A stretch of DNA of 64,000 bases from Hyperoplus lanceolatus (lineage: Eukaryota > Chordata > Actinopteri > Uranoscopiformes > Ammodytidae). The stretch's first letter is position 1, and the number at the start of each line of letters is the position of its first letter. Both the position numbers and the translations under genes were made by a program. Location: contig CM049405.1 of the NCBI GenBank assembly GCA_026929865.2, positions 17,067,001-17,131,000 of the forward strand. Direction: 5' to 3'. Positions 2,841 through 63,193 of this stretch are shown here, in pieces. The notes under the pieces were generated by a model. It saw only the letters and a list, made by a program, of their open reading frames with translations, did no database searches and was not told where the DNA came from.

Positions 2841-2889
2841 TTAATGCTGTTTGCAGCACCCTGCACACGTGAACCCTAATCTACCTTAA

Positions 2890-3821
2890 AGCCACTACGA
2901 GTAAGATGGCACGTTGGCGTCCCCTTTGGACAAAAGCGGTAGTATTTTTACGACGCCCGCTATCGCAAAGCTGTTTACTAGCGCGTGACAGGCGTGCAAG
3001 TGTGAACTGAGAAGGGCGCAATATAGTGCATGTCCGTGTGTTGAAAGTGTGAGGACTCTTTTCGGCTCCGTGAGAGTGGTTTTGACACTGCATCAACTAA
3101 TGCCAGTCACTGCCACACACACCTGATTGCAATGAGTAGATGCAGCAGTGTCACCTAACTACTCTCTCTCTCACGGAGCTGAAAGATGTGTCCTCACAGA
3201 AAGCGAATGAACGAGAGACGGCAGTTAGTATGGATCACGATGAGGTAATGTGTTTGTGTTGTTGATGTAAATAATGACTATTTCAGATAATGGTTATCTG
3301 ATGATGGTGAAGCAAAGCAAACTGTGTGTTAGTGCCAACCGCTCATTCATTTAGGAGTAAACACTGAAGTCTAGTTTCGCTCTCGTGAAATTGTATACAC
3401 GTTGCTTGGCAACGCCCTCGTTCCCGCCGTAGCCTATATCACTCTCCCTTTTAGCTTTTCTTCATTGCATTTTAATTTTGTTCTTTGATGGTTCAGCCCC
3501 GTTATCAGTCACTATAACGACAAATAACTGTCTCAAACAAGGCTCCCGCTCCCCTTCCCTCACCTGGAGGGATAGGCTTCTCAAATCACGTTGCTGCGCC
3601 ACACTGAAATCTGCGACCAATATGGATATGTGACCATAGAGCCTGCACGAGCGAACCGAAAATCGGACTGGGTGTGCGACCAGACCAAAAGCAGTAATAA
3701 AAACTATATAAAAACGTCTTTCTTTGCACTGATGGTCTCGTTTGCTGTTAAAGGTAATTTATGATTATGAGAGGAAACATGAGGCTGTTTAAAAGATATT
3801 TAAATGTTACTCGTAGCCGCT
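2890..3821. mobile_element. TTAA-flanked DNA transposon, family CGAGTAA, copy 1
   Basis: A 932-bp element flanked by TTAA at 2886-2889 and 3822-3825. The terminal inverted repeats are AGCCACTACGAGTAA on the left and AGCGGCTACGAGTAA (reverse complement) on the right. It has no transposase. A second copy of nearly the same length lies at 36810-37727 and is alike base for base over most of its length by eye, differing by small indels. The TTAA duplication points to a piggyBac/Kolobok-type transposase acting in trans. It lies in the baz2b intron just downstream of the first coding exon. Confidence 0.85.
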
Positions 3822-3938
3822 TTAAATCATTCATCAAACTTGTCCAAAATGTGGCCTGGATGACAAAAATAAATGAACTAAATACTTGATCTTTTGCCTA
3901 CTTTTTGCAAACATCTAAGCCGTTGTGTGTCTACATAC

Positions 3939-8716: not shown

Positions 8717-8921
<205 letters not shown>

Positions 8922-18780: not shown

Positions 18781-20216
18781 TTAAGGGAGGACCACCCAAC
18801 CTTTTCATATAAAACACAATGGTGTGTATCATAAGCATCTCCTGTAATGAATCTCAAAGCAGAGTGAAATACAGAGTTTAGGAGTTTAAGGCATGAACGA
18901 GATGCATGCCGATAAACCACATCACCGTAATCAAGGACAGACAAACTACCTCAATAATCCTTTTCCTACTGAACAACGGGAAGGTGGCTTTATTCCTATA
19001 AAAATATCCAATCTTTTGTCGTAGACGACAGACAAGATTTTTTATGTGAAATGTAAAAGAGAGTTTTTCATCTATCCAGATGCCAAGATATTTATATTCA
19101 GTGACTCTTTCAATATGAGATCCATTATTTGTGTGAATAATAAGATCATTAAAATGTGTAATTCTTGCTCTGGAAAAACACATATATTTTTTTTTTTTTG
19201 TTTTTTTTTCAGATCCACTAGACAGTTCTGCAGGGTGTTAAAAGAGCTCTGTAGGTTCTGAACAGATTGTTACACTGAATCAGAAATGCAATACAGTACA
19301 GTGTCGTCCGCATACAAATGGGCATGGCAGTTTTGTAGTGATGAAACAATGTTATTGATGTAAATTGTGAATAGGACTGGACCTAAAATTGAGCCCTGCG
19401 GAACACCATTTGTAACTGTTAAAAACTCAGTTTGGTAGCTTCCCAGTTTTACTGATTGCTGTCTATCAGAGAAATAGTCCCTAAACCAGCTACATGTAGA
19501 ATAGTCAAAACCAATTTCATGCAGCCTCTCTAAAAGCAAATGGTGATCTAAAGTATCAAAAGCTTTTGACAGATCAACAAAAAGTGCTGCACAGTGCATT
19601 TTTTTAAAAAACGATAGCTGTAACAATGTTGTCTAAGACCACAGTGACAGCTGATACGGTACTGTGGCCTGCCCTAAAACCAGATTGAAATGGACTCAAA
19701 ATGGAAGCACTGGATAAAAAGGTTTTCAACTGAGTATTAATGACTGATTCTAGAATTTTTGCCAGGCATGGGAGTTTGGAAATTGGCCTGTAATTATTGA
19801 GATCACTTTTGTCACCCCCTTTATGTAATGGAATGACGTGAGCTTTTTTCCAGACTTTAGGAACAATACCAGAGGAGATGGAAAGATTAAAAATATGGGT
19901 TATTTGTTTTGATATGATAAGTGCAGAGAGATTTATTGAAAATGGGTCCAAATTGTCCTCTCCCATGTACTTCCTGGGGTTGATGGCAAGAAGCGCATCT
20001 ACAACAATACTTGTTGGAACTTGAACAAGGCTGAAAAGAGGAGTTTTAGAGACAGGTGGTATGCTATTTTTATTTCTGGTGGTGGAAGGCATAGATACTC
20101 CATTGTGAAAGAGTTTACCAGCAGCTATAAAGTGTTTATTGAAAGCTAAACCAATTTCTTTCTGATCATTTAAAGTCTGATCATTTACTTTTAACTGACT
20201 GGGAACAGTGCTAGAA
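18781..20216 (-). pseudogene. LINE A reverse transcriptase piece, frameshifted
   Basis: Minus-strand reading from the right gives STVPSQLKVNDQT, then IPLHKGGDKSDLNNYRPISK (RT block 1-2), FQSGFRAGHSTVSAV (block 2a), ALFVDLSKAFDTLDHHLLL (block 3, catalytic D), NGVPQGSILGPVLFTIYINN (block 4), HLYADDTVLY (block 5, YADD), EYKYLGIWIDEKLSF (block 7) and finally VGWSSLK. The parts lie in at least three different frames with breaks near 19.61, 19.26 and 18.94 kb, so it no longer encodes a protein. It belongs to the LINE A copy, with its N-terminal side interrupted by the 20217-31301 block and its C-terminal side by the TTAA element. Confidence 0.9.
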
Positions 20217-21442
20217 TTATTAGGGGGCCAAGCCCGAGAAGGGCCTGGGACCGCGTTTTGCAGAGCAACGCGGTTCCATAGCCCTGCTGGGCAGGGAACC
20301 CTATTGTTTTTGCTAGGATTATTAGGGGGCCAAGCCCGAGTAGGGCCTGGGACCGCGTTTTGCAGAGCAACGCGGTTCCATAGCCCTGCTGGGCAGGGAA
20401 CCCTATTGATTTAGTAGGAATTATTATTAGGGGGCCAAGCCCGAGAAGGGCAAGGGACCGCGGAATGCAGAGCACCGCGGTTCCATGACATGCGGGGCAT
20501 GGAACCCTATTGTTTTAGTAGGAATTATTATTATTATTAGGGGGCCAAGCCCGAGTAGGGCCTGGGACCGCGTTTTGCAGAGCAACGCGGGTTCCCAAGC
20601 CCTGCTGGGCAGGGAACCCTATTGTAATTGCTGGGATTATTAGGGGGCCAAGCCCGAGTAGGGCCTGGGACCGCGTTTTGCAGAGCAACGCGGTTCCCAA
20701 GCCCTGCGGGGCAGGGAACCCTATTGTTCTTGTAGGGATTAGTAGGGGGCCAAGCCCGAGTAGGGCCTGGGACCGCGTTTTGCAGAGCAACGCGGTTCCC
20801 AAGCCCTGCTGGGCAGGGAACCCTATTGTAATTGCTGGGCCTTTTATTATTAGGGGGCCAAGCCCAAGTAGGGCCTGGGACCGCGTTTTGCAGAGCAACG
20901 CGGTTCCCAAGACCTGCTGGGCAGGAAACCCTATTGTAATTGCTGGGATTATTAGGGGGCCAAGCCCGAGTAGGGCCTGGGACCGCGTTTTGCAGAGCAA
21001 CGCGGTTCCCAAGCCCTGCTGGGCAGGGAACCCTATTGTAATTGCTGGGCCTTTTATTAGGGGGCCAAGCCCGAGTAGGGCCTGGGACCGCGTTTTGCAG
21101 AGCAACGCGGTTCCCAAAACCTGCTGGGCAGGGAACCCTATTGTAATTGCTGGGATTATTATTATTAGGGGGCCAAGCCCGAGTAGGGCCTGGGACCGCG
21201 TTTTGCAGAGCAACGCGGTTCCCAAGCCCTGCTGGGCAGGGAACCCTATTGTTTTTGCTGGGATTATTATTATTAGGGGGCCAAGCCCGAGTAGGGCCTG
21301 GGACCGCGTTTTGCAGAGCAACGCGGTTCCCAAACCCTGCTGGGCAGGGAACCCTATTGTAATTGCTGGGATTATTATTATTAGGGGGCCAAGCCCGAGT
21401 AGGGCCTGGGACCCCGTTTTGCAGAGCAACGCGGTTCCCAAG
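20217..21442 (+). repeat. minisatellite array 1, 12 units of ~105 bp
   Basis: Twelve units begin (ATT)nAGGGGGCCAAGCCCGA and end near CCCTATTGTNNTTGCTGGGA. Each unit contains a strong hairpin, CCGCGTT...AACGCGG (9-nt loop), and a second, GGTTCCC...GGGAACC. The (ATT)n spacer varies from one to several repeats, giving units of about 98-117 bp. The last unit is cut by the 21443-22041 insertion. It is open in several frames on both strands, but only because of its repetition and composition. Confidence 0.95.
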
Positions 21443-22041
21443 TAGCCTGGCTCCGCCCGCCCGCCTACTTCCGGCCAAATTTCATTTTCCCTTCAGTAGT
21501 CAGTCTGGGTGTACAGCGCATTTCCCAGATTCTCCGGAGAATCTACGATCGGCCAATCAGCGAACAGAGCGAGTGGCTGAGAACGCTCCAGTTTCAGTTG
21601 AATGCTGCGTTGCTTTATACTCGGAAGAAGGAGATTTCCGACTTGGTAGTTCCGAGTTCCGACCCGTCTGTGTTCCAGTGCATCTGCTCGCGAAAGTATG
21701 GACGCCTAAAACCTTTCTCGTCCAAATAACTAAACGTTAGGCTCTAAGAAGTTACTGTTGCCAGGTACCGGTAGATTCATAGACTACAATATGTAGTGAA
21801 GTCGGAAATTTCCGAGTTCCCTGTCCAACTGGAAGGCACCATCAAAAGCCGGCTCATGACACACGTGATGACCAAACGTGATGCGATTGGTTGGCTAATC
21901 CAGAGTGGCACTGGGCAGATCCAATAGTTTTAAACTTCGACAGACACCCGCCTCCAAGTGAGTTAACGTTTGCCAATTACAGCACTTCCAGACCATTTGT
22001 ACAAATGAAATGAAGTACGGTGGTCTGGTTGGACCAGGCTA
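21443..22041. mobile_element. 599-bp MITE, termini TAGCCTGG/CCAGGCTA, 9-bp target duplication
   Basis: The insertion lies inside a minisatellite unit. GTTCCCAAG occurs at 21434-21442 and again at 22042-22050, flanking an element that starts TAGCCTGGCTCC and ends GGACCAGGCTA. The inverted termini pair over about 11 bp. The interior (e.g. CCGGAGAATC, CAATCAGCGAACAGAG) has no convincing protein. The 9-bp duplication would suit a Mutator-like element, or hAT if one base is shared by chance. A second element with the same features is at 41872-42098. Confidence 0.8.
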
Positions 22042-22951
22042 GTTCCCAAGCCCTGCTGGGCAGGACTTATTAAAAAAAAGAGTTTTTCAATTTTTTTGCC
22101 TGTTTTCGCCATTTTTTAAGTCTTTCGGCGGGAAAATTCAAAAAAGTGTTCTACAATGGAGAGGTTGACAATTTGATTTTGCTATAACTCCCCAACCGAA
22201 CATCGCACATTCAAAAACTTGACATCCACTTGTTTGGTACATTAAGCTGCATCTGTCTATCTAACGTTGTTTTGTGAATGTCATCCATAGGGGGCGCCAA
22301 AACCATAAAAAGCAAAGAAAACGCGTTTGGGGCTATAACTTCCACACCGAACATCCCACAGTCAAACACTTTATATCCACAGATGCCCACAAGTCAGCTG
22401 CATCTTTTCAGATAGGCCACGCCCATTTGCCTATAGGATTTTTTTTCGCTACATCGCAAAAACTGTGTCAGTCACCAAAACACACTCCTCCTACAGTTTT
22501 TGCCCGATTTGGACGACACCAAAAGCATTATGCTCTACCGACTCCCACGAGCCAAATTTGGAAACGGAATTTTTCTACGACCATCGGAAGACCAAACGGG
22601 AGCGCTTTAAAGATTTGCACATTAGCTACCTTGTACCAAACTGCTCCTAAATCCCAAATGATTCATCCTATTAACACCAAACTTCACAAATGTGTTTGTC
22701 CTATGGTTCTCAGGTTGTTTCTACTTTTTCCTTAAATTTGCTCCAAAAGGGGGCGCCAAAAACACACTTGAGCATCTTTCTCTGCGATTTTTTTGCGTTT
22801 TGGTCTATAACTCCCAAACCAAACATCCCACATTCAAAAACTGTACATCCCCGGATTCCGTGAAGCGAGGGGCCGGCGCCACGGACGACGACGCCCGATC
22901 CCGAGTCGCGTGGGAGGCTTGGCCCCCGTTCACAACTGCTTGCAGTTCTAG
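22042..22951 (+). repeat. Helentron-like copy 1, body and 3' terminus
   Basis: After the end of the split unit come AT-rich sequence and body modules seen again in copies 2 and 3. These include CCACACCGAACATCCCACAG, CCGACTCCCACGAGCCAAAT, GGGGGCGCCAAAAACACACT and CCCCGGATTCCGTGAAGC. The 3' end is GGAGGCTTGGCCCCCGTTCA, then the palindrome AACTGCTTGCAGTT and CTAG. The body is non-coding on both strands. Confidence 0.75.
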
Positions 22952-23740
22952 TTATTAGGGGGCCAAGCCCGAGTAGGGCCTGGGACCGCGTTTTGCAGAG
23001 CAACGCGGTTCCCAAGCCCTGCTGGGCAGGGAACCCTATTGTAATTGCTGGGATTATTAGGGGGCCAAGCCCGAGTAGGGCCTGGGACCGCGTTTTGCAG
23101 AGCAACGCGGTTCCCAAGCCCTGCTGGGCAGGGAACCCTATTGTAATTGCTGGGATTATTAGGGGGCCAAGCCCGAGTAGGGCCTGGGACCGCGTTTTGC
23201 AGAGCAACGCGGTTCCATAGCCCTGCTGGGCAGGGAACCCTATTGTTTTTGTTGGGATTTTTATTATTATTATTATTAGGGGGCCAAGCCCGAGTAGGGC
23301 CTGGGACCACAAGCCCTGCTGGGCAGGGAACCCTATTGTAATTGCTGGGACCGCGTTTTGCAGAGCAACGCGGTTCCCAAGCCCTGCTGGGCAGGGAACC
23401 CTATTGTTTTTGTTGGGATTTTTATTATTATTATTATTAGGGGGCCAAGCCCGAGTAGGGCCTGGGACCGCGTTTTGCAGAGCAACGCGGTTCCCAAGCC
23501 CTGCTGGGCAGGGAACCCTATTGTAATTGCTGGGATTATTAGGGGGCCAAGCCCGAGTAGGGCCTGGGACCGCGTTTTGCAGAGCAACGCGGTTCCCAAG
23601 CCCTGCTGGGCAGGGAACCCTATTGTTTTTGTAGGGATTATTAGGGGGTCAAGCCCGAGTAGGGCCTGGGACCGCGTTTTGCAGAGCAACGCGGTTCCAT
23701 AGCCCTGCTGGGCAGGGAACCCTATTGTTTTTGCTGGGAT
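22952..23740 (+). repeat. minisatellite array 2, about 7 units
   Basis: These are the same units as array 1, beginning directly at the CTAG end of copy 1. One unit near 23.30-23.40 kb is rearranged, with a partial deletion that fuses two units. It is followed by (ATT)n and CTCCGCGTAAAACTGGTGCT, the start of the body of copy 2. Confidence 0.95.
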
Positions 23741-24233
23741 TATTATTTTTCTCCGCGTAAAACTGGTGCTGCAGCCCAAACCGTAAAGGGTAGGGACATG
23801 CCACTTGCATGACTAGATCCAGGTCCGTGCCTGGTACGCAGACAAAAAAATTCAGACATGCCGGCCACTAGGTGGCGCTACAAAAAAAGGAAAACGTGTA
23901 AAACTTCCACACCGAAAGTCCGACAGTCAAAAACTTTATATCCACAGATGCCCACAAGTCAGCTGAATCTTTTGAGATATGCCACTCCCATTTGCGTATA
24001 TATAGATTTTTCGCTACATCGCAAAAACTGTGTCAGTCACCAAAACATACTCCTCCTACAGTTTTCGCCTGATTTGGACCAAACTAAAAGCATTATGCTC
24101 TACCGACTCCCACGAGCAAAATTTGGTCAAATAGTTTTTCTACGACCATTGGAAGACCAAACGCTAGCGCTGTAAAGATTCGATTTTTCGATATGGAACA
24201 TTTCTTCTTATTTTTATTTAAAATGGTGCTGCA
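23741..24233 (+). repeat. Helentron-like copy 2, body before the L2 insertion
   Basis: The body runs TGCTGCAGCCCAAACCGTAA, GACATGCCACTTGCATGACT, GCCACTAGGTGGCGCTACA and CCGACTCCCACGAGC up to AAAATGGTGCTGCA. There it is interrupted by the L2 LINE. The matching continuation resumes at 29193 with ACCGTAAAGGG. Confidence 0.8.
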
Positions 24234-24440
24234 AGGCAAGGCAAGGCAAGGCAAGTTTATTTATATAGCACAATTCAGACACAAGGCCACTCAAAGTGCT
24301 TTACAGGGGCAAGATTAGAATACATAAAACACATTATAAAACATTTAAAAGCGAATAAAAGAAGCAAATAAAAATAAAATAAAAATTAAAACTCGATTTA
24401 AAAACATAATAAAAGAAGCAAATAAAATGAAAATTGCAAG

Positions 24441-27418
24441 TTAAAAAGGAAACAAAAAAGTCTTCAGACTCGATTTAAAAGAACTGAGAGTTGCAGCAGA
24501 CCTCAAGTTCTCTGGGAGTTTGTTCCAGATTGTTGGTGCATAAAAACTAAAAGCTGCTTCTCCTCGTTTAGTCCTAACTCTAGGGACTGTAAGTAGACCT
24601 GTCCCAGACGACCTAAGGGCTCTGGACGGTTCATAACTTATCAGCATATCAGTAATGTATTTTGGCCCTAAACCATTTAGTGCTTTATAAACCAACATCA
24701 GAATTTTGAAATCAATTCTTTGAGTGACTGGAAGCCAATGTAAAGACCTCAGAACTGGGGTAATGTGATCCACCTTTTTGGTCCTAGTGAGGACTCGAGC
24801 AGCAGCGTTCTGAATTAGCTGAAGCTGTCTGATTGATTTTTTTGGAAGGCCAGCAAGGACACTGTTACAGTAGTCAAGTCTACTAAAGATAAATGCATGG
24901 ACAAGTTTTTCTAAATCTTGCTGAGACATAAGCCCTTTAATTCTTGATATGTTTTTTAGGTGGTAGTAGGCTGATTTATTGATTGATTTTATGTGTTTCT
25001 TGAAATTCAAGTCAGAATCTACAACAACACCAAGATTTCTGGCTTGGGGTGTAGTTTCTAACATAATGGATGTAAGCTGTGCGCTGACTTTTAATTGTTC
25101 ATCTTTGGCACCAAAGACAATTACTTCAGTTTTATCGTTGTTTAATTGAAGGAAATTTTGGCACATCCAATCATTGATTTGTTCAATGCACTTACTCAGT
25201 GCCTGTATTGGACTGTAGTCTCCTGGTGATATGGTTATGTAAATTTGTGTGTCGTCTGCATAATTATGGTAGCATAATTTGTTCTTATTCATAATCTGAG
25301 CTAGTGGGAGCATGTAGATGTTAAATAGAAGAGGGCCAAGAATGGAACCTTGGGGGACCCCGAATGTAATATTTGTCCGCTCAGATGTGAAATTGCCTAT
25401 TGACACATAGTAGTCTCTATCCTTTAAGTAGGATTCAAACCAGCTTAGTACAGTTCCCGAAAGTCCAATCCAGTTTGCTAGTCGATCTAGTAATATGCTG
25501 TGGTCAACTGTGTCAAAAGCGGCACTGAGATCCAGTAAAACTAAGACAGAACTTTTGCCACTGTCTGTGTTTAAGTGGATGTCATTGAGGACCTTAACCA
25601 GAGCAGTCTCAGTGCTGTGGTGTTGTCGAAATCCTGACTGGAAGACATCAAAGCAGTTATTCATTGCTAAGTAGTTATTTAGCTGTTGATAAACAGCTTT
25701 TTCAATGATTTTACTTAAAAATGGTAGGTTAGATATGGGCCTATAATTTTTCATGAGTGATGTATCTAGATTGTTCTTTTTTAAGAGTGGCTTGATGACT
25801 GCTGTTTTCAGGGCCTGTGGGAATACACCTGTCTGAAGGGGCATATTGACAATTTGTAGAACATCTGAGGCCATACAGCTAAAAACAGTTTTAAAGAAGC
25901 CTGTGGGCAGAATGTCAAGGCAACAGGATGAGGAGTTCAGGTGTTGTATAATGTCCTCCAGGTTTTTGTGGTTTATAATATAAAATTCTGTCATTGCATT
26001 TGAATTGATTTTAAGAGGGAACACATATGTTGAACTTGATATTGATGCAGTGACAGCTTGTCTAATTTTGTGAATTTTCTCAGTAAAGAAGGAGGCAAAT
26101 TCATTGCAGGCCCTCGTGGAAAGATGCTCAGACGCTACTGGCACAGGAGGGTTTGTTAATCTGTCGACAGTAGCAAACAGGGCACGTGCATTGTTGTTGT
26201 TTTTGGTGATGATGTCAGAAAAGAAAGAAAGCCTTGCATTTCTCAGTTCTGAGTTAAACGTGCACAGTTTCTCTTTGAAGATGTCATAATGAACCTGGAG
26301 ATTTGTTTTTCGCCACCTGCGTTCTGCTTTACGGCACTCTCTTCTTTCTATTCTGACCTGCGGGGCATTTCTCCAAGGAGATCTTTTCTTACCAGAGACA
26401 ACCTTCATCTTAGTGGGCGCAATAGCATCTATAACACTTGTAAGTTTGCCGTTAAAGTTGTCTAAGAGCTCCTTAACTGAGTTACAGGGGAGGGGTGGTA
26501 TCGAAGAAAATGCTTGAATGAATGTTTCACTGGTATTTTCTGTAATATACCGCTTTTTGATTACTTTTGACTGATCAATTGTGTGAACAGACATTGTACT
26601 CTCAAAAAATAAACAGGAATGGTCTGAGAGGGGACCCATATCTGTCACTGTTATGTCTGAAATGTTCATTCCTCTGGAAATGATAAGGTCCAGCGTGTGC
26701 CCTTTGTTATGAGTTCGTTTGTCAACATGCTGATTTAGTCCAAAGTTGTCAAGGACACAGCACAGTTCTTTCGCACATCTGTCCTCTGGTTTGTCAGTAT
26801 GAATATTGAAATCTCCGACGATTAATACACAGTCAAACTCAGTACAGATTACAGACAGCAGTTCAGTAAGTTCATCAAAAAAGCTTGCATTGTATTGTGG
26901 TGGCCGGTAGATATTGATGAAAATAGCTCTAGAGGCTGAATTTAACTGTAGAGCCACATACTCAAATGAATCAAAATTTCCATAAGACATCTTTTTGCAT
27001 TGTAGAGATTCTTTAAACAGAATAGCAACCCCCCTCCTTTTTTATGCACTCTGGATTCACTCACAAAATTGTAATTTGCGGGGGCGGACTCTATAAGAAC
27101 AGCTGAGCTGTTATCTTGGTCTAACCAAGTTTCAGTTAAAAACATAAAATTAAGATTGTGCCTAGTAATAAGATCATTAATTAAAAATGTTTTACCTGCC
27201 AAGGATCTGATGTTTAATAAAGCTAAATTTAGTGTGTTCGAAGCATTGTCAGCCCGATTTATTTCAGCACACTGTGGCTGAAGAGGAATGCTTATCAGAT
27301 TTGATACATTTACAGGATTTAAGAGTTTCCTGTTACTTGAGATACACTTTGAGAAACAGGGCCCCAGCTTATCCTGTGAGTCGTAGGCGTTAACTATGTA
27401 GCTGCGGCCCGGCACATA
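24441..27418 (-). pseudogene. L2 LINE ORF2: endonuclease-reverse transcriptase, one frameshift
   Basis: The N-terminal AP endonuclease shows LNIRSLAGK, FLTETWLD, YRPPQ, GDFNIH and SDHSCLFF. The RT shows YRPISNLPFLSKIIEK, FQSGFRQHHSTETAL, LVLLDLSAAFDTVDHSILL, FGVPQGSILGPLLFNIYMLP and HNYADDTQIY (catalytic YADD). The C-terminal part includes LQLIQNAAARVLT, SLHWLPV and FYAPTIWNKLPENLR, all hallmarks of the L2 clade. The frame is broken once near 27.03 kb, where a G run after RVHKKGGG appears one base short. Apart from that it is open for about 990 codons. The frame opens directly after the ORF1 stop without its own ATG (TGA-TAT-GTG), in the same frame as ORF1. Confidence 0.92.
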
Positions 27419-28909
27419 TCAACAAGTGCTGACATCATCAGTCTCACTAGCCTGATGATGATGACGTCGCGGTGGGATCAGCGGGGGTTTGCGTGGCGGG
27501 GTGAAGAGCCGGGCGCTGTGGCTTAGATTGGCGAGTTGAGGGGGACGTTGACTGCTGGGGGTACATATGATTTCCTTAAATCCCAGATCAGGAGAGGATG
27601 GAGAAAGGGTGGTTGTAGGAGAGAAACGAGGAGAGAGAGGTCGGCTTGGTGTTGACCTGCGTGGTCCAGGGGAGACGGGGATGGGTGGAGCCCCCTCCTC
27701 TCTGCCCTGATATCTCTCCTGGTCTGAGCTGTCATCTGGGGCCGGCAGTTGTCCTTCGGCGCTGCTGCTACGCTGTGTTATCTTCTTCTCCTGGGCCTTG
27801 TCCTTGGCAAGAACAGATTGGTGACGTAGGACGTACATCACGTTGGATGTGAATAGTTTGACTCCAGCCTTATTTAGACAAAGTCCATCTGTCTTAAAAA
27901 GCTGCTTGCGGTTCCAGAAAATGTTAAAATTGTCAATAAAATGCACTGAGTGGTCAGGGCACACAGTTGAAAGCCATGTGTTCAGTGCTAACAGTCTAGT
28001 GAATCGCTCAGGTCCTCTTCTGATTGGTGGCAGAGGACCACTGATAAACACCTCAGCATTCAGTGAGCTGACCGTGTTCAGGAGATTCTTAAAGTCCTGT
28101 TTCAACATTTCAGACTCTTGTTTTACAACATCATTTGATCCGATGTGCAGAATGATGTTCTTTACAGTTGTGTGTGCAGCTGCAATTTCCAGGATTCTCT
28201 CTTCTAGGTCCGACACCATATCATTTGGAAAGCAGAGTACTTTGGTATCAACACTAAACATGCTTTTCATATCTCTAACAGAAAAGTCTCCAACTATCAG
28301 GGTTTCAGGCCTGGTCGTTAGCTTGGTTAGCCCGGTTGTTAGCTCTCTCTGTGGCTCTTGGCTTTCGGGCCTTACCTTGTTGTGTGAAGGCGCTATGCTA
28401 TCTTGGTCATCAGAGGGAAATCCAGGGACTTGCATCAGTGGAGTAAACCGGTTCGACACTTGCACACTTGTTTGCTGTGGAAGTTTGTTGTTGTTACCTC
28501 TCTCCCTTGCAGTAATCCATTGCTGCGGCCTCCGAGGCGCGGGGGTTGAGGAGGCACCGTGCCTGAGTGATAACGCAGGCCAGCCATCCAGATCAGTCAT
28601 CTCATGGTGCTCGGCCCTGCCGGTTATCCGTCCTCCCTTTTCCAATCTCTTTGGCCTTCCACCAAGACGATTCCAGGGAGGGTTATCACTAACCTGGACA
28701 CGGCCCTTTTGTTTCTTCATAGCCTTGTCGGTGCTAGTTAGCTGTGCGTTAGCTCGATCTTGTCCACTGTTTAAAGTCACTGATAGAGTGGTGTCGTTCC
28801 CACATAGTCCATTCACATCAATGTTCATTTCTATTAGATTCATTTTTGTTTCCAGTGCTGTAATCCTCTGTAGGAGTGTTTGATAGTCCTCGTTAGATAA
28901 GGGAGGCAT
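27419..28909 (-). CDS. L2 LINE ORF1: coiled coil plus SGNH/GDSL-esterase-like protein
   Basis: I chose the start at MPPLSNEDY (28909); an in-frame upstream ATG at 28987 would add 26 residues. Residues 1-30 form a heptad-like helix (LLQRITALETKMNLIEMNI), likely for oligomerisation. The middle is basic and Ser/Pro-rich. Residues about 200-375 carry SGNH-hydrolase blocks: LIVGDFSVRDM (block I, with F where the catalytic Ser of GDS is usual), ILHIGSNDV (block III, GxND) and TDGLCLNKAG (block V, Asp; the His position reads C-L-N). Esterase-type ORF1 proteins are known from CR1 and L2 LINEs, where they bind RNA/membranes. The altered residues suggest loss of hydrolase activity. The C-terminus is Pro/Ser-rich. 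Confidence 0.88.
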   Translation of the reverse strand: MPPLSNEDYQTLLQRITALETKMNLIEMNIDVNGLCGNDTTLSVTLNSGQDRANAQLTSTDKAMKKQKGRVQVSDNPPWNRLGGRPKRLEKGGRITGRAEHHEMTDLDGWPALSLRHGASSTPAPRRPQQWITARERGNNNKLPQQTSVQVSNRFTPLMQVPGFPSDDQDSIAPSHNKVRPESQEPQRELTTGLTKLTTRPETLIVGDFSVRDMKSMFSVDTKVLCFPNDMVSDLEERILEIAAAHTTVKNIILHIGSNDVVKQESEMLKQDFKNLLNTVSSLNAEVFISGPLPPIRRGPERFTRLLALNTWLSTVCPDHSVHFIDNFNIFWNRKQLFKTDGLCLNKAGVKLFTSNVMYVLRHQSVLAKDKAQEKKITQRSSSAEGQLPAPDDSSDQERYQGREEGAPPIPVSPGPRRSTPSRPLSPRFSPTTTLSPSSPDLGFKEIICTPSSQRPPQLANLSHSARLFTPPRKPPLIPPRRHHHQASETDDVSTC

Positions 28910-29192
28910 CTTGCTGCTAATTAGCTTTAGCTGAGCGCCTCGCTTCCAGTCACCACAGGCTTGTCCTGTTGTTAGGCCCCCCCTCACGTTCTATTGAGAA
29001 GGTCGTAAAAGTGTCCAAAAATGCCTGTAGTATCTATAAAAGTAAAAATAAATTACAGTCCCTTTGATTTGTATGTATCCAGGACCTGCTGCTAAATTTA
29101 TTATCGAGGAAAAATAAGAATGTAAGCAAAAAGTGCAAGAGGAGGAGAGAGCAAGCAGAAAAGCGTCTGCACAGTAGGAAAGCAGGAAGCAA

Positions 29193-30393
29193 CACCGTAA
29201 AGGGCTGGGACATGCCACTTGCATGACTAGATCCAAGTCCGTGCCTGGTACACAGACGAAAAAATTCAGACATCCCGGCCACTAGGTGGCGCTACAACAA
29301 AGGAAAACGCGTTTGGGGCTATAACTTCCGCACCGAAAGTCCGACAGTCAAATACTTTATATCCACAGATGCCCACAAGTCAGCTGCATCTTTTGAGATA
29401 TGCCACGCCCATTTGCGTATATATAGGTTTTTCGCTACATCGCAAAGACTGTGTCTGTCACCAAAACATACTCCTCCTACAGTTTTTGCCCGATTTGGAC
29501 GAAACCAAAAGCATTATGCTCTACCGACTCCCACGAGCAAAAGTTGGTCAAAGAATTTTTCTACGACCATCGGAAGACTAAATGGTAGCGATTTAAAGAT
29601 TTGATTTTTCAATTTGGAATGTTTCTCATGTAAAATGGTGCTGCAGCCCAAACCGTAAAGGGTTGGGACATGCCACTTGCATGACTAGATCAAGGTCCAT
29701 GCCTGGTACGGAGACAAAAAAATTCAGACATACCGACCACTAGGTGGCGCTACAACAAAGGAAAATGCGTTTTGGGCTATAACTCCCACACCGAAAGTCT
29801 GACAGTCCAAAACTTTATATCCACAGATGCCCACAAGTCAGTTGCATGTTTTGAGATAGGCCACGCCCATTTTCGTATGGGATTTTTTTTTGCTACATCG
29901 CAAAAACTGTGTCAGTCACCAAAACACACTCCTCCTACAGTTTTTGCCCGATTTGGACGAAACCAAAAGCATTATGCTCTACCGACTCCCACGAGCAAAA
30001 CTCGTATAAAGAATCTTTCTACAACCATCGGAAGACCAAATGGTAGCGCTTTAAAGATTTGCACATTAGCTACCTTGTACCAAACTGCTCCTAAATCCAA
30101 AACGATTCATCCTATTAACACCAAACTTAACACATGTGTTTGTCCTATGGTTCTCAGGTTGGTTCTACTTTTTCCTTAAATTGCTCCAAAAGGGGGCGCC
30201 AAAAACACACTTGAGCATCTTTCTCTGCAATTTTTTTGCCTTTTGGTCTATAACTCCCAAACCAAACATCCCACATTCAAAAACTTTACATCCCCGGATT
30301 CCGTGAAGCAGGGGCCGGCGCCGCGGACGACGACGCCCAATCCCGAGTCGCATGGGAGGCTTGGCCCCCGTTCACAACTGCTTGCAGTTCTAG
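29193..30393 (+). repeat. Helentron-like copy 2, remaining body and 3' terminus
   Basis: The body resumes at ACCGTAAAGGGCTGGGACAT. An internal direct duplication of about 430 bp is visible, because the TGCTGCAGCCCAAACCGTAA to TTTAAAGATTTG module occurs at ~29.19-29.63 kb and again at ~29.64-30.06 kb. It ends GGGAGGCTTGGCCCCCGTTC, then the AACTGCTTGCAGTT hairpin and CTAG at 30393. Confidence 0.8.
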
Positions 30394-31301
30394 TTATTAG
30401 GGGGCCAAACCCGAGTAGGGCCTGGGACCGCGTTTTGCAGAGCAACGCGGTTCCTAAGCCCTGCTGGGCAGGGAACCCTATTGTTTTTGTAGGGATTATT
30501 ATTATTAGGGGGCCAAGCCCGAGTAGGGCCTGGGACCGCGTTTTGCAGAGCAACGCGGTTCCCAAGCCCTGCTGGGCAGGGAACCCTATTGTTTTTGTCG
30601 GGATTATTATTATTATTATTATTCTTATTCTTTATTCTTATTCTTCCATGCGTAAAAGTGGTGCTGCAGCCCAAACCGTAAAGGGTTGGGACATGCCACT
30701 TGCATCACTAGTTCAGACCCCTGGTCTCTCAGCATACAAAAAAATCCAGACATGCCGGCCACTAGGTGGCGCAACAACAAAGGAAAAGGCGTTTTGGGCT
30801 ATAACTTCCGCAAAAACTGTCAGTCACCAAAACACACACCTCCTAGAGTTTTTGCCCGATTTGGACGAAACCAAAAGCATTATGCTCTACCGACTCCCAC
30901 GAGCCAAATTTGGATAAGGAATTTTTCTACGACCATCGGAAGACCAAACGGTAGCGCTTTAAAGATTTGCACATTAGCTACCTTGTACCAAACTCCTCCT
31001 AAATTCAAACGATTCATCCTATTAACACCAAACTTCACACAAGTGTTTGTCCTATGGTTCTCAGGTTGGTTCTACTTTTTCCTTAAATTGCTCCAAAAGG
31101 GGGCGCCAAAAGCACACATGAGCATCTTTCTCTGCGATCTTTTTGCCTTTTGGTCTATAACTCCCAAACCAAACATTCCACATTCAAAAACTTTACATCC
31201 CCGGATTCCGTGAAGCAAGGGGCCGGCGCCGCGGACGACGACGCCCGATCCCGAGTCGCGTGGGAGGCTTGGCCCCCGGTCACAACTGCTTGCAGTTCTA
31301 G
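30394..31301 (+). repeat. Helentron-like copy 3, two units plus body
   Basis: Two ~105-bp units are followed by (ATT)n, a CTTATTCTTTATT stretch and a shortened body. The part between GCTATAACTTCCG and CAAAAACTGTCAG is deleted relative to copy 2. It ends with the same subterminal GGCTTGGCCCCC, hairpin and CTAG at 31301, where LINE A resumes. Confidence 0.8.
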
Positions 31302-31870
31302 TTTTTGTTATAATTCACAGCCTTCCAAAATAGTGCAGGGTTGGAGTAGCAGTTGGAAATTAGTCTGAGGTAGTAATCTGATTTAGCTTTCCTAACCATG
31401 GATATGCACCTATTTCTGATTTGTCTGAAAGCAGTCCACTTAGAGTTTTCACCAGAGTGTCAAAGCTCGGGACCATGCTTTATTTCTCTCTGCAAATACA
31501 TCGGACAATTCATTTGTGAACCAGGGGTTTGATCTATTTTTACTCTGTGCTTTTTAAGGGGTGCATGCTTGTTCAAAATGGAGTAAAAAGTATTGGTGAA
31601 AAATTCTAAGGCCAATTCCACATCAGATATTTCACTTGTGAGATGAATGTCACTTTGATAAGAGTTCATTTAAAAATGCTTGCTTGTTAAACCTTTAAAA
31701 TTACGCTTAATAATGATTTTGGGTTGAGATTTTTTAAGATGAATACTTCTGATACAGGCCACCGGGCAGTGATCACTGACTCCAAGCTCAAAGACACCAG
31801 CAGAAACTATTTTATTGCTTTGATTTCATTATATTAAATCGATCAAAGTTGATTTTGCTGGGTTTTTTGC
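31302..31870 (-). pseudogene. LINE A endonuclease end and linker
   Basis: Minus-strand codons read TLIDLI, then NQSNKIVSAGVFELGVSDHC (the SDH motif of APE endonucleases), KKSQPKIIIKRNF, FYSILNKHAPLKKHRVK and KAVNYNKN. The frame is interrupted by several stops and a frameshift. The element seems to end near 31.87 kb, upstream of which no more endonuclease is visible, so LINE A was 5'-truncated on insertion. Confidence 0.8.
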
Positions 31871-32373: not shown

Positions 32374-33299
32374 GACCTTAAAAAAATTGCAACAGAAACC
32401 ATTCCAACTGTTTTTGACTCATGAATATGTAATAAATAACATACTAAAAGTCTTAAGGAATCCATGTGGAGGAAAGTTATTTTTTAAGGGTTTTCTTAAC
32501 CACACCTTTTATGCCAATTTTCGGCTTCCTAAAGTACTGTTTTATGGTTGAGGGGATATGTGCCAAATTGATAACCTTTTCAGAAAAGCATGAAACTTGG
32601 TACACATATACAGTTTGGAGCCCTGAGCAGTTTCAGATATTTAGCCATTGCAAAATGTAATCATGGTTGCCGTGGCGACCATTTTACGTTCCGCCATAGC
32701 CTAATTATGCATTTTCCCTCATAACTCCTGAACCAAACATAATAACACATAACTAGTGATGTCTGCCCCCATGTTTTCATGGTCAGGGATTACAATGATA
32801 CCACATACAACATCAGAAACAGTGAAGGTCAGTAGTTAAGGGTGAATCCAATGTTTTTCCGAAAATGAAAGCCCAATTTCCGAAAACATCGGTGTGACTT
32901 TATAATTTGGGCCTATGTTGCATAAACATTGTGTAGCATTGTATGAGTTTTAATTTTGTTCTCTAACAAAGACATAGGCTTAAATGTTTGTAAAATAGCC
33001 TACTATAACAATATAAGAAAACACAAATATTTGTGAATGCTAAACTGGCACAAATTGATAAATTTTTGAACTGATGAACATGCATTTTAATATGAAAATA
33101 TTTTGGTGCACAGACATACTACTTATTCAAAGTGCAGCCAGAGCAGTACTAATGCAATGTGAAAGGGGTACATCAATGCATACCATGAGTATGCATTACC
33201 CTCTGACCCCCTCTGGCCTGTGATAACTTGAGAGGGGAGATGAGAAAAGACTAATTTCAATGTAGCCTTGTGTAATTGACTAAAAGAAACTCAACCTAG

Positions 33300-35496: not shown

Positions 35497-35671
<175 letters not shown>

Positions 35672-36367
35672 AATAATTGATTTGCATTGCATCCAACACC
35701 ATATCTCTCGTTAAACAAAGTTGTCGGTTGATTTGGGTTTTTTGTATTTTTTTTTTACAAACATTTAAGCCTATGTCTTTGTTAGAGAACACAATTAAAA
35801 CTCATACAATGCTACACAATGTTTATGCAACATAGGCCCAAATTATAAAGTCACAGCGATGTTTTCGGATATTGGGCTTTCATTTTCGGAAAAACATTGG
35901 ATTCACCCTTAACTACTGACCTTCACTGTTTCTGATGTTGTATCATTGTAATCCCTGACCATGAAAACATAGAGGCAGACATCACTAGTTATGTGTTATT
36001 ATGTTTGGTTCAGGAGTTATGAGGAAAAATGCATAATTAGGCTATGGCGGAACGTAAAATGGTCACCACGGCAACCATGATTACATTTTGCAATGGCTAA
36101 ATATCTGAAACTGCTCAGGGCTCCAAACTGTATAAGAGAAGAAAAGGTTAACAATTCTGAAAAGGTTAACAATTTGGCACATATCCCCTCTACCATAAAA
36201 CAGTACTTTAGGAAGCCGAAAATTGGCATAAAAGGTGTGGTTAAGAAAACCCTTAAAAAAATAACTTTCCACCACATGGATTCCTTAAGACTTTTAGTAT
36301 GTTATGTATTACATATTCATGAGTCAAAAACAGTTGGAATGGTTTCTGTTGCAATTTTTTTAAGGTC

Positions 36368-36788: not shown

Positions 36789-36805
36789 TTCCTGTTCCTG
36801 CACTC
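36368..36805. repeat. short spacer with (CA)21 at 36745-36786
   Basis: Non-coding DNA between the inverted-arm element and the second CGAGTAA element. The only feature is the CA run. Confidence 0.8.
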
Positions 36806-36809
36806 TTAA

Positions 36810-37727
36810 AGCCACTACGAGTAACATGGCACGTTGGCGTCCCCTTTGGACAAAAGCGGTAGTATTTTTACGAAGCCCGCTGTCGCAAAGCTGTTTACTA
36901 GCGCGTGAGTGTGAACTGAGAAGGGAGCAATATAGTGCATGTCCGTGTGTTGAAAGTGTGGACTCTTTTCGGCTCCGTGAGAGTGGTTTTGACACTGCAT
37001 GAACTAATGCCAGTCACTGCCACACGCACCTGATTGCAATGCTGATTGCTAACTACTCTCTCTCACGGAGCTGAAAGATTAGGCCTACGTGTCCGACTCC
37101 TCATAGAAAGCGAATGAACGATAGACGGCAGTTAGTATGGATCACGATGAGGTAATGTGTTTGTGTTGTTGATGTAAATAATGACTATTTCAGATAATGG
37201 TTATCTGATGATGGTGAAGCAAAGCAAACTTTGTGTTAGTACCAACCGCTTATTCATTTAGGAGTAAACACTGCAGTCTAGTTTCGCTCTCGTGAAATTG
37301 TATACACGTTGCTTGGCAACGCCCTCGTCCCCCCGTAGCCTATATCACTCTCCCTTTTAGCTTTTCTTCATTGCATTTTCTTTTTTTTCTTTGATGGATC
37401 AGCCCCGTTATCAGTCATTATGACGACAAATAACTGTATCAAACAAGGCTCCCGCTCCCCTTCCCTCATCTGGAGGGATAGGCTTCTCAATTCACGTTGC
37501 TGCGCCACACTGAAATCTGCGACCAATACGGATATGTGACCATAGAGCTTGCACGAGCGAACCGAAAATCGGACTGGGTGTGCGACCAGACCAAAAGCAG
37601 TAATAAAAACTATTTAAAAACGTCTTTCTTTGCACTGATGGTCTCGTTTGCTGTTAAAGGTAATTTATGATTATCAGAGGAAACATGAGGCTGTTTAAAA
37701 GATATTTAAATGTTACTCGTAGCCGCT
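36810..37727. mobile_element. TTAA-flanked DNA transposon, family CGAGTAA, copy 2
   Basis: TTAA at 36806-36809 and 37728-37731 flanks a 918-bp element with the same termini as 2890-3821: AGCCACTACGAGTAA and TTACTCGTAGCCGCT. The internal order matches too (e.g. GCGTCCCCTTTGGACAAAAG, AGCGAATGAACG, GAGTAAACACTG, GCACTGATGGTCTCG). The few small indels indicate that both copies came from one source fairly recently. No transposase. Confidence 0.9.
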
Positions 37728-37731
37728 TTAA

Positions 37732-40700
37732 AGTTGTGTGCAGCCAGGCCTGAAAGATGGGAGGAAAGGTGCACGGCTTGGCAGATTTATACCATTCTCC
37801 TTACAGACAGAAAAATAACTGTCTGTGTATGGGTAGCTCCATACATCCCAACGGTCCTAGGTGTATGGGACCCAAACCTTTTGGATTTTAATTTTTCTCT
37901 TCATGTTATGTATTGTTGAATAATGGTAGAAAACCCAACATGCCGAGCCCCTTAAGGGTTTTCTGGGTTTCCTTTGCATGTGCTTTTTTACTCTGTCTCT
38001 AAAATGTATCCTTGTTATTGTTTTTGTATTGTTTTTTTACATGTGCTAAATAAATGAATTAAAAAATCAAAGTCTGACTTTGATACATTAACTAATATGT
38101 GTAATATCTTTTTAATTATTTGAATTATGTATTCATACAGAGAGAAGAGCCCAGGAATAAGTGGCACATATGTCAAACGGAAGTTAACAGACTTGCAATA
38201 CAATAAACCTAAAAATTTAAATATTTGGAATGAATGAAAATCAATGTGTTGTATAAATATCAATTTGATGAATAATCAGAACCTGGGGGGGTCGGCAGAC
38301 AACGTTTCACTTTTTCTGAAGGATGCCACTTAAATCCAAACCTTTCCTCCTGAATATTTAGGCTACATGAATACAATATTAATTTTACTGCAGGAGGACA
38401 GTCCATGAATAACAATGAGATAGGCTAATGAAATCAACTATCTAGCTGAAATGCATATATTAAACTGAGGTATCAATGTCCTTCTTCTTTTGCATTGTTT
38501 GTTCATTTTACTCTTTTTGCCACAGGTTCATTCAATATTTGCCTCGGCCATGGATTTGTTTACAGCCAAGAATAATTACTGCGTAGCACCGTTTTATTCT
38601 GTGTGCCTATGTTATCTGTGTAATGAGAAGAGCCATTAGAAAATTAATATTATTTGCATGAACATTTTCCACCTTAGCAAATTTGTTATTTTGAGTCAGT
38701 GTTAATGAAAACTGCTTGCCAAATTGAAGCCATGCGATACAGTATCTATCCTCCTGAGGAAACCCTTCCATTAACAATGTAGTTTAAAGAACTGGGGGAA
38801 CTCAGTCAAATCAATTAACGTCATTCTGTAATAACATGGAATAAATGGAGCTAAAAAGCTGTGTTGATTTTGTGAGTCCTAAGCTGATTTATCTTCTACT
38901 GTGTTTGAAATGGTACAAAACATGATTGTTCATAAAAAGTACAATTAGTTTCCTCATTATGAACTAACAACAACACCAGTTTCATGATTACACATGCAAT
39001 CTCTCTCTCTCTAAGGAAAGAATAATTTTTGCACTAGCTTAGTAAACAAGGGGTTGTAAAATAATTCATCCCATGCATAGAGGATCTCTGTGAACGGCAG
39101 AAGGTCACTTCCCGCCAGCAAAGCTGATAGGGGAAATGGCGTTGATGTTCCTGAGCAGCCATTTTTCGTCCCTGACAAAGACTCCATCTGCCACGGGGCC
39201 ATTTGCAGCCTGCGAGTCAGAATATCAATGATTTCCCAACCATTCTACAACACAGCATTCTAACCTTGGCGTCACCTCTACGCCAGTCTGAGCGCTGACA
39301 CCACAGATCTGTCCTGTAGCTATGCCAACAAAACTCTCATCCAGCTAAGTGGCATTCACACTGCTCAAGAACAGTGAGCATTTAAGTTAGCAATGATCAT
39401 ATTTGAGCTGTTTTTGAGATGGATGATCGAGCTGCTGCAAAGTGTCAACATTTCTGGGTCGACTCAAATTATTAGCAAAATCGAGGACGCAACTCATGAT
39501 AAAGATGACATACTGTGGATTGGAAGCTTTTTCTCCGGGACAAGCTGCACAACGTTTCTGTGTGCTGATTAAGTCAGAAAAAAGACTAATAATCCCTGTC
39601 GCCCCAAATGAAGACTTGATGCCAACATTAAAGAAGGAACAGCAGCTGGTCATGATCACCCAAGAAAATGCAATATTCCTCAATGCCATTTGCGCACCTC
39701 GGAGACACACAGTCCCAGTCCTCTGACAAGCTCCCCCAGTAGACCATGTCAGTGTTGTCCCTAAAACCCAAAGACCTGCCTGACCTCTCACCCCACAAGA
39801 GAAAGAAACATAAATAATTCCAAGGAACTGAAACGTCTCTTTCTTTCTCCCTCTGGTCTTATCCCTGTTGAGCGGACATAACATGTTCCACATAAATCCA
39901 TACCGCACCGCTACCTCCACTAAATATTATATTACTCCCTTCAAAACCAGCAGGCTATATATAAATTAATAGTACATAAAGAAAATGAGAGATTTGTCCT
40001 AGCATCAGCCAGTTAACAGTACAAGTCGCACAAACATGCACTACTAGTTGATTTGCCATACAAGGAAGTTAAGCACAGCACTGTAGTTTGGTGCTTCTTC
40101 TGGAGAGAGAATACATAAATGATTCAATTCAATATTTTGTTCCCTTATTCTCTTAAGCCCATTTCACACAGGAACTCTGGACAATATCCAGACTAGAGAA
40201 TATGTTTCAGGTACTGCTGATCTACCTGTTCGCATATAGTGCTGCAAATAGTAAGGGTGGCTTGGGATACAGACAGAGCAACTAGGTAGGATAGGATGTG
40301 AAAGGTGCACTACAGAGACCTCAGTATTTTACAGTACAATGTTGTTTGGCCCAATCGCCAGAGGCCCATAGATCTGATCATCCCTCTAATGTGTCCACCA
40401 TGACATTTCTACAGACTTTGCCCTGCTGAATGATGCATCATTTTGGACCTATATTGTGGTCACTCAAAATCTAACATTTATTTGATGTACTTTTATACAA
40501 GAAAGAAGTAGTCTGAGATAAGGCCGAATTTATTTAATGTAAAGACCATTAAGCCCATAGAAAAAAACATGACATAACCAGTGTTGTGGATACAGAAACA
40601 CATTTTGCACTTTGCTGCTATTCATTCGATTCATTACACATCTGAGAACAGTCGGTGTCAATTCACTATCCATACAACTAACAAACAACATAGTTGCATC

Positions 40701-46446: not shown

Positions 46447-48402
46447 CCTTCTTCCATGGTTTAGATCAATTAAAGTATTAAACAGGTAGGCCTAGTCATT
46501 ATTAGTATTTTGACTTCATATCTACAGGTTGTTTATTGTGATTTCATAAGCGTCAGTGAGCTCCATGGTAACGCAGTGATTGACAGGCTGACTGAAATGC
46601 CCTTGAGCTGGACAGAAACTCCCCTCTCCCAACCCAACACCCCTCTTAAAATACACAAACCGTTTGCCTTTACTGTCGCGACCCCAAAAAAAGTCGGTCG
46701 CGTACTGACCCCCCAAAGGCCCATTCTGAGCCAGGAAAAACCCTGGCGTCAGGTTTTATCTGAAATGGAAGAGCAGGAGTTAATAAGAAAATCTGTCAGT
46801 GAGTATGCCTCCCCCTAGTGCTTGTGTGGAAAAAGGATGGCAGCTTGAGACTCTGCACGGACTTCAGATGGCTCAACGCCAGAACGTTCAAGGACGCCCA
46901 CCCATTACCGCACCAGTCAGATTGCTTGGCCGCTCTGGGTGGAAACACCTTCTTCAGCACAATGGACCTGACTTCAGGCTTTCACAAAGTTCCGATGGCT
47001 GAAGAGGACAAAAGTTACACTGCATTCACAACTCCAATGGGGCTGTATGAGTATAACAGGATGCCACAGGGTCTCTGCAACAGTCCTGCATCCTTTATGC
47101 GTATGATGCTCAGCATATTTGGAGACTTTCAGCAGTCTATTGTGCTACCTTGACGACCTGCTCGTGTTTGCCTCAACTGAAGAGGAAGCTTTGGAGAGCT
47201 TGGAAACTGTTCTGCAGCGACTCCGACTCCACAATCTCAAACTGAGCCCTAAAAAGTGCCATCTTATGAGGTCCTCAGTTAAATTCTTGGGTTATATTAT
47301 TGATGCCAATGGAGTGGCTGTAGACCCTGCAAAAATTGATGTCCTCTCAAAAATGTCAAAGGAAGATCTTATGGAGGATAATGGCTGCACACCATCAGTG
47401 AAGAGGATAAAGTCTTTCTTGGGAATGGTATTTTTATTACCAGCACTTCATCCCTAATTGCTCCTCCATAGCCAAGCCCCTCTTTGCTTTAACCGGTGGA
47501 CAAAAAAAGCGTGGAAAGATCAAAGTAAAATCCAACGTGGGTTCTTTCAGGAAGCTCCACCCCTCTGATTGGTCAGACGAATGTGACAAGGCTCTGTGCA
47601 AACTCAAAGACAGCCTCTTAAACTGTGTTGTTCTCTCACATCCAGATTTCTCACAGCCTTTCATCCTGTCCATTGATGCTTCTTTAGATGGGCTCGTAGC
47701 TGTATTATCCCAAGTACCAACTGGCGAAAAGAAAGCTCGCCCCATAGCTTTTGCGAGCAAGACACTGAGCAGCTCTCAGAAAAATTATCCAGCTCATAGG
47801 TTGGAATTTTTAGCATTGAAATGGAGCGTGTGTGAGAAGTTTAGCCATTGGTTAAGAGGCCATTCTTTTACAGTTTGGACTGATAACAACCCTCTTACTT
47901 ACATCATGACGAAACCTAAGCTCGATGCTTGTGAGCAACGCTGGGTGTCCAAACTTGCCCCATACACATTCGACCTGAAGCACATACCCGGCACTAAGAA
48001 CACCGTTGCCGATGCTCTCAGCAGAGACCCTTTTGCCACCACAGTCAGCCGCAGGCTCATCACAGAGCAGTACAGCCGTCTCCTTGATGAAGCTGAGGAT
48101 ATCAGTCACAATGGCATTCAAGACACCTTCAGATTAAAAGTCCAATGTCACAGAGTCACAAAGTCTAAGGCTAAAGGTGTAAATATTCAACCTGGCACTT
48201 TAAAACATCCTTGTGACACAGTAACTGTTCAGGCTCTTCTTAATGCTACTGATCAGTGGGAGGTTGCTACAGAGACCAGGGCTATTGAGTTGCTACAGTC
48301 AGTCCAAGACCTGTTGCCGCCAGGGCAAGATTCACTCCCTGTGTTTACGTTAGAGAGGAACTGCAACGTAGTCAGGAGCTCGATCCCACCATTTCAGTCA
48401 TC

Positions 48403-52947: not shown

Positions 52948-63193
<10,246 letters not shown>

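Follow-up and report, generated by a model that had tools for sequence, protein, structure and literature searches.

Positions 20217–31301 of the 64-kb window (the whole stretch of DNA analysed here, from contig CM049405.1) contain a block of 11085 nt composed of three same-orientation, head-to-tail copies of a single repeat element, which interrupts a long interspersed nuclear element (LINE A). The element is very probably a non-autonomous rolling-circle transposon of the Helitron superfamily, and the array is likely to have grown by repeated precise insertion next to a resident copy. Taking these parts together, we lean towards an explanation of the block as three insertions of one non-autonomous rolling-circle family with Helitron2/Helentron-type ends, arrayed by serial insertion. 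Coordinates are listed in Table 1.

Ends, seams and insertion site

The 3′ end AACTGCTTGCAGTTCTAG gave three exact matches ending at positions 22951, 30393 and 31301; with up to three mismatches allowed, one extra match was obtained at 27900 within a LINE nested in copy 2 (chance mean 0.07). The hairpin AACTGC-TT-GCAGTT plus CTAG, which the original prediction had assigned to all three ends, was present exactly in 3/3 cases, with the palindrome ending 4 nt before the 3′ terminus. Copies 1 and 2 each continue directly into TTATTAGGGGGCC, and both seams (22951/22952 and 30393/30394) read CTAG/TTATTAGGGGG with zero spare bases. The predicted head-to-tail order of three copies, the first two of which abut the 5′ start of the next, was borne out by these exact ends (3/3 copies) and exact seams (2/2), with the correction that the copies are strongly unequal in length. 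Each copy is ordered from left-end units through internal repeats of ~458 bp to a conserved 3′ tail; the nested LINE of copy 2 sits between the first and second 458-bp internal units.

A search for TTATTAGGGGGCCAAGCC that allowed up to three mismatches yielded 21 matches with 0 or 1 mismatch, every one inside the block. The left end of the copies is a minisatellite of 21 units (12/7/2 per copy), and each unit opens with the element's own 5′ terminus, a point that goes beyond the original prediction. Unit lengths are 102–110 bp, except for one of 117 bp and one composite unit of 161 bp. In copies 1, 2 and 3, the 5′ inverted repeat is offset by 6 nt (TTATTA) from the 5′ end. In copies 1 and 2, the inverse pair GGGGGCCAAGCC/GGCTTGGCCCCC is 12 bp long. 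Copy 3, with a first unit that reads GGGGGCCAAACC, has a pair of 9 bp; the predicted inverse just inside the 3′ hairpin was found at full length in two copies and in reduced form in the third. Of 5000 dinucleotide shuffles of the copy-2 5′ end and the copy-1 3′ end, 2 produced an inverted repeat of at least 12 bp, 43 a stem of at least 6 bp, and 0 the two together.

When unit 23054–23155 was folded singly as DNA, it formed a long hairpin with an energy of −29.4 kcal/mol (shuffle mean −17.24, z −4.88, 0/200 as good), spanning ~84 nt. In the consensus fold of 19 units, the 5′ inverted repeat pairs with downstream bases. The stems were analysed in 19/21 units (17 distinct), with the units at 21378 (interrupted) and 23273 (composite) left out. 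Three designed stems (18 pairs) were kept in 98.4% of cells across the 17 distinct units. Double-sided changes numbered 2, compared with a shuffle mean of 0.1; 0/500 shuffles reached this value, and slid versions of the stems gave 0 or 1. Unit 20424–20533 is strongly divergent and retains the stems via two double-sided changes. The 5′ hairpin is strong, and its selective upkeep is only hinted at by these data.

The flanks of the block, GCTAGAA on the left and TTTTTGTT on the right, have nothing in common except possible Ts at this one site. With the block (11085 nt = 3 × 3695) excised, the minus strand of LINE A reads ...FWKAVNYNKNSSTVPSQLK... in a single frame, so that the predicted rejoining of the LINE was recovered, the block splitting one Asn codon. 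Beyond the join, LINE A extends into the reverse transcriptase (RT) domain (RVT_1, E 2.8e-08), and a MAFFT alignment with the nested LINE of copy 2, a distant relative, runs gap-free across the join. Counting one T in front of copy 1 and one per seam as host sequence makes the site three Ts longer and still keeps the frame; therefore, the target may be A/T or T/T, the one site reading AA/TTTTT or AAT/TTTT. The claim that no target duplication exists beyond possible Ts holds at this single insertion site.

An element of another kind, either a cut-and-paste transposon or a satellite expanded in place, would suit the large minisatellites and the fact that just one insertion is seen. The block is without a terminal inverted repeat (TIR) at its very ends and without a target duplication, and such an origin is highly improbable in view of the three identical 3′ ends, the two exact seams and the cleanly interrupted LINE frame. 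A cut-and-paste DNA transposon was rejected on the dissimilar ends (TTATTA versus CTAG) and the lack of both TIR and duplication.

Origin of the array

The 3′ tails differ at 23/495, 21/493 and 22/492 positions per copy pair (the last for copies 2 and 3), corresponding to 4.3–4.6%. Over 497 columns, private substitutions number 10/12/10 in copies 1/2/3, with 2 three-way sites; 7/12 of the private tail substitutions of copy 2 fall in columns 98–124, perhaps an exchanged patch. After trimming to the shared stretch, comparison of the copy-3 head with each of the three copy-2 heads gave 15, 19 and 18 differences over 97 positions, and comparison of the copy-2 heads with one another gave 6, 6 and 9 over 98 (untrimmed, 14.6–18.8% and 11.5–14.6%, where one row included ~11 nt from the LINE edge). 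A stretch at ~22065–22313 is private to copy 1, the other copies giving just short matches to it (≤75 bp at 72–89%), and the first units of the three copies differ pairwise at 6, 7 and 6 of 102 positions.

As the copies are unevenly divergent, include a private stretch and carry 12, 7 and 2 units, serial insertion of different family members is the simpler reading. It explains the uneven array at least as well as a multimer does, so the exact seams alone are no proof of the latter; after the tail, head and private-stretch comparisons, they were dropped as such. The original prediction that the tandem had formed by rolling-circle transfer thus found no support over its rival, the copies being internally too unequal and serial insertion giving equal seams.

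A single rolling-circle event, in which the 3′ end was overrun or a circle copied repeatedly and the ready-made multimer inserted, to diverge and be remodelled later, is rather unlikely. The seams are identical to a circle junction, the tails are equally diverged with private substitutions at similar numbers, and tandem Helitrons have been interpreted in this way before (PMC5876387, PMC5148889) and are cited in support of rolling-circle replication. A single multimer should leave three like copies; the unequal copies speak against it, although later exchange could blur the picture. Such exchange would be required to account for the copy-3 head, which stands 15–20% from the copy-2 heads as opposed to 4–5% in the tails, and for the private stretch of copy 1, the differing first units and the differing unit numbers. 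Still less probable is a dimer that formed once and gained its third copy by unequal crossing-over between minisatellites or tails. The long repeats common to the copies would allow this, and the seam would be reproduced exactly; it leaves the first seam unexplained, and the tails single out no pair of copies as the closest.

For the favored serial insertion, the enzyme, strand chemistry and order of events would be as follows. The RepHel protein of an absent autonomous partner would nick at the 5′ TT...GGGGGCC end and peel one strand off, halting at the 3′ palindrome-CTAG end, and the peeled strand would be joined into a T-rich site without duplication. A copy with its 5′ T after a host A would re-form an A/T site at its own left edge, and a newcomer entering this site would yield the seam CTAG/TTATTA, as seen twice. 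Under a T/T rule, a newcomer inserted in the right-hand T-run would produce an identical seam that contains one host T.

Several points weigh against the proposed assignment and its mechanism. The inverted repeat of copy 3 is just 9 bp long, and 6 nt separate the 5′ inverted repeat from the terminus, compared with published distances of 0–2 or 2–4 nt. The folding energy of the 3′ palindrome is no better than that of shuffles (36 nt, z −0.04, 94/200 as good; 112 nt, z −1.23, 21/200); as it is unremarkable by energy, its weight lies in its exact repetition at three ends. Both double-sided stem changes of the 5′ hairpin fall in the single unit 20424–20533, and RNAalifold on the same alignment found 1/30 pairs double-sided and no covariation gain (+0.22). 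BLASTP gave no match over the LINE A join itself, the one match obtained lying closer to the RT domain (E 3e-10; 38% across 65 residues). The left flank TGCTAGAA (20209–20216) matches the unit end TGCTAGGA at 7/8 positions, which makes the left block edge less certain than it appears; the edge was kept at 20217 because flank and unit differ beyond 8 nt and the LINE frame runs through the flank. This likeness may be due to chance or be a clue to target choice. Against serial insertion in particular, the changes in the copy-3 head are bunched, so that they may be few events or even a single exchange, and the 10/12/10 private tail substitutions also suit one simultaneous origin. Finally, the evidence comes from a single locus: searches of prokaryote, virus and plasmid collections turned up neither a further genomic copy nor a real empty site nor a RepHel partner; these collections are without animal genomes, so that this absence says little.

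Coding content, nested insertions and surroundings

No Rep or helicase domain was detected in the 12 scanned of the 14 block open reading frames (ORFs) of at least 150 aa. The domains in these ORFs were those of the nested LINE and otherwise weak matches, mostly in minisatellite ORFs. An FYRC match in a minisatellite ORF (E 3.9e-07, 30.6 bits, cut-off 21; 0 stretches pass alone) was rejected as a repeat artefact, as were S4 and other Pfam matches in minisatellite ORFs, which remained under the cut-off. Outside the block, Rep or helicase was likewise absent from the 26/69 ORFs of at least 90 aa in the window that were scanned whole. Searches for RNA families and tRNA found none.

Two secondary insertions lie within the block. 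The one in copy 1, whose ends are alike at 18/30 positions, falls outside the rolling-circle family; from the length of its 9-bp duplication, it may be MULE-like. The LINE in copy 2 has its ORF1 at 27422–28990 and ORF2 at 24444–27041, with a tail repeat of the CTTGC type.

Table 1 Features of the block and its surroundings (positions within the 64-kb window)
Feature	Position	Strand	Remarks
Copy 1	20217..22951	+	12 left-end units; nested TIR element in twelfth; private internal stretch; 3′ tail; palindrome-CTAG end
Left-end minisatellite, copy 1	20217..21442	+	12 units, twelfth interrupted
5′ asymmetric inverted repeat GGGGGCCAAGCC, copy 1	20223..20234	+	6 nt (TTATTA) from 5′ end
Secondary insertion in copy 1, 599 bp	21443..22041		8-bp TIR TAGCCTGG...CCAGGCTA; 9-bp duplication GTTCCCAAG
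3′ asymmetric inverted repeat GGCTTGGCCCCC, copy 1	22916..22927	+	24 nt from 3′ end
3′ palindrome AACTGC-TT-GCAGTT + CTAG, copy 1	22934..22951	+	
Copy 2	22952..30393	+	7 left-end units; approximately three 458-bp internal units; 3′ tail; palindrome-CTAG end
Left-end minisatellite, copy 2	22952..23739	+	7 units; composite one at 23273–23433
Secondary insertion in copy 2, LINE	~24231..29190	-	GDSL-type ORF1, endonuclease/RT ORF2; edges approximate
3′ inverted repeat + palindrome + CTAG, copy 2	30358..30393	+	
Copy 3	30394..31301	+	2 left-end units; one shortened internal unit; 3′ tail; palindrome-CTAG end
Left-end minisatellite, copy 3	30394..30609	+	2 units
3′ inverted repeat + palindrome + CTAG, copy 3	31266..31301	+	
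Host LINE A, upstream coding part	31302..31645	-	adjoins 3′ edge of block
Host LINE A, downstream part (RT domain start)	19721..20216	-	adjoins 5′ edge of block
Apparent host-gene exons	52951–54591, 57546–58417	-	ankyrin repeats in 57546–58417 (Pfam)

Elsewhere in the window, the first of the two apparent host-gene exons is long, contains a glutamine run and gave no solved-structure match; both presumably belong to a TANC1/2 gene, which would point to a vertebrate in general rather than specifically to the teleost of the original prediction. Pol pieces of a long terminal repeat retroelement (RT, RNase H and integrase) occupy several frames at 46803–50310 (+), and we assume a Gypsy-like element from the domain order. 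Among matches of at least 150 bp, dispersed repeat pairs were observed at 2885–3826 / 36805–37732 (92%, direct) and 32374–32995 / 35753–36367 (95%, inverted). Dinucleotide runs comprise AC × 101 at 8718–8919 (99% match) and CT × 85 at 35499–35668.

In viral contigs, the exact 18-nt 3′ end occurred at one locus (L001), the 401 bases around which were without the inverted repeat, and the 5′ pattern at two loci (L002, L003), where the stretches were without the repeat unit. Further end-pattern scans of viral contigs and of prokaryote-type genome contigs (a collection without animal genomes) gave 0 matches, and a distant blastn search in plasmids and phages gave none. A search for LINE relatives showing an empty site returned 12 pattern matches, 0 of which were confirmed. 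In the literature, the titles among the matches listed for six end motifs concern other work, and a tandem fish Helitron is named in no title among the matches listed, most of which were judged by title alone.

Comparison with known rolling-circle elements

Helentrons of fish are said to have been described by Poulter in 2003. Helitron2 elements begin with a 5′ T and have inverted repeats of 8–15 bp. The 5′ one lies 0–2 nt from the end, and the 3′ one directly precedes the hairpin at a distance of 20–30 bp from the 3′ terminus; their 5′ hairpin uses the 5′ repeat (PMC3627910). The element described here shares the 5′ T, the repeat length, the position of the 3′ repeat upstream of the hairpin and the involvement of the 5′ repeat in a 5′ hairpin, as well as the lack of target duplication reported where Helitron2 5′ ends are intact (PMC3627910). 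It differs in that 6 nt rather than 0–2 separate the 5′ repeat from the end, in its 5′ hairpin of ~84 nt, which is tandemly repeated, and in the 3′ end CTAG. Because of the 6-nt distance, we file it in the Helitron superfamily with Helitron2-type ends, and not as a proven Helitron2 member. The original prediction of a non-autonomous rolling-circle element stands to this extent, with ends that largely match the Helitron2 descriptions and no Rep or helicase domain found in the scanned ORFs; it may be a Helentron in the strict sense, which would call for a partner whose RepHel is fused to an endonuclease domain.

Helitron2 and Helentron elements insert in TT or after TTTT. Non-autonomous Helentrons (HINE/DINE-1) resemble the element in their subterminal inverted repeats (subTIRs), 3′ palindrome, T-rich target and internal tandem repeats (PMC4067079, PMC7492417). 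HINE tandem repeats are located between the end modules (PMC7492417), whereas the unit here includes the 5′ terminus. Mite HINEs have their subTIRs 2–4 nt inside the 5′ end and 38–60 nt inside the 3′ end, with the palindrome 8–35 nt from the latter (PMC4067079); the element departs from this layout, the corresponding distances being 6, 24 and 4 nt. The proto-Helentron-Pi of Phytophthora infestans has a 5′ TT and a 3′ CTAG, makes no target duplication and inserts between A and T, which is compatible with the site here; unlike the present element, it is ~14 kb long with a RepHel gene (PMC4067079); the comparison covered its outer ends and target. Canonical Helitron1 elements share the 3′ CTRR (here CTAG), the 3′ palindrome and the absence of target duplication (PMC4067079, PMC5148889). 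In contrast to them, the element starts with TT instead of TC, has its palindrome 4 nt instead of ~10–12 nt from the end, and possesses asymmetric inverted repeats and a 5′ hairpin.

In fungi, both multiplied 5′ termini and a tandem of three copies have been described, with self-insertion or rolling-circle replication put forward as the cause (PMC5148889). FoHeli elements have 5′ termini of <200 bp repeated with one 3′ terminus, and Metarhizium acridum Helitrons occur as three copies in tandem (PMC5148889); these are fungal elements with other end sequences, and their two or more 5′ termini compare with up to 12 here. With its left terminus serving as the minisatellite unit, the element is a concrete example of how Helitron ends can seed tandem repeats. 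Tentatively, it may represent a rolling-circle family of vertebrates in which canonical-type ends (CTAG, possible A/T target) are combined with Helitron2-type inverted repeats. The multiplied left end would then offer many A/T sites for starting and landing, and arrays would grow by newcomers inserting exactly at the residents' left edge, so that both tandem Helitrons and minisatellites would arise by self-targeting. Known families underlie all of these features, and what the block adds to them is a further example that hints at how tandem rows build up.

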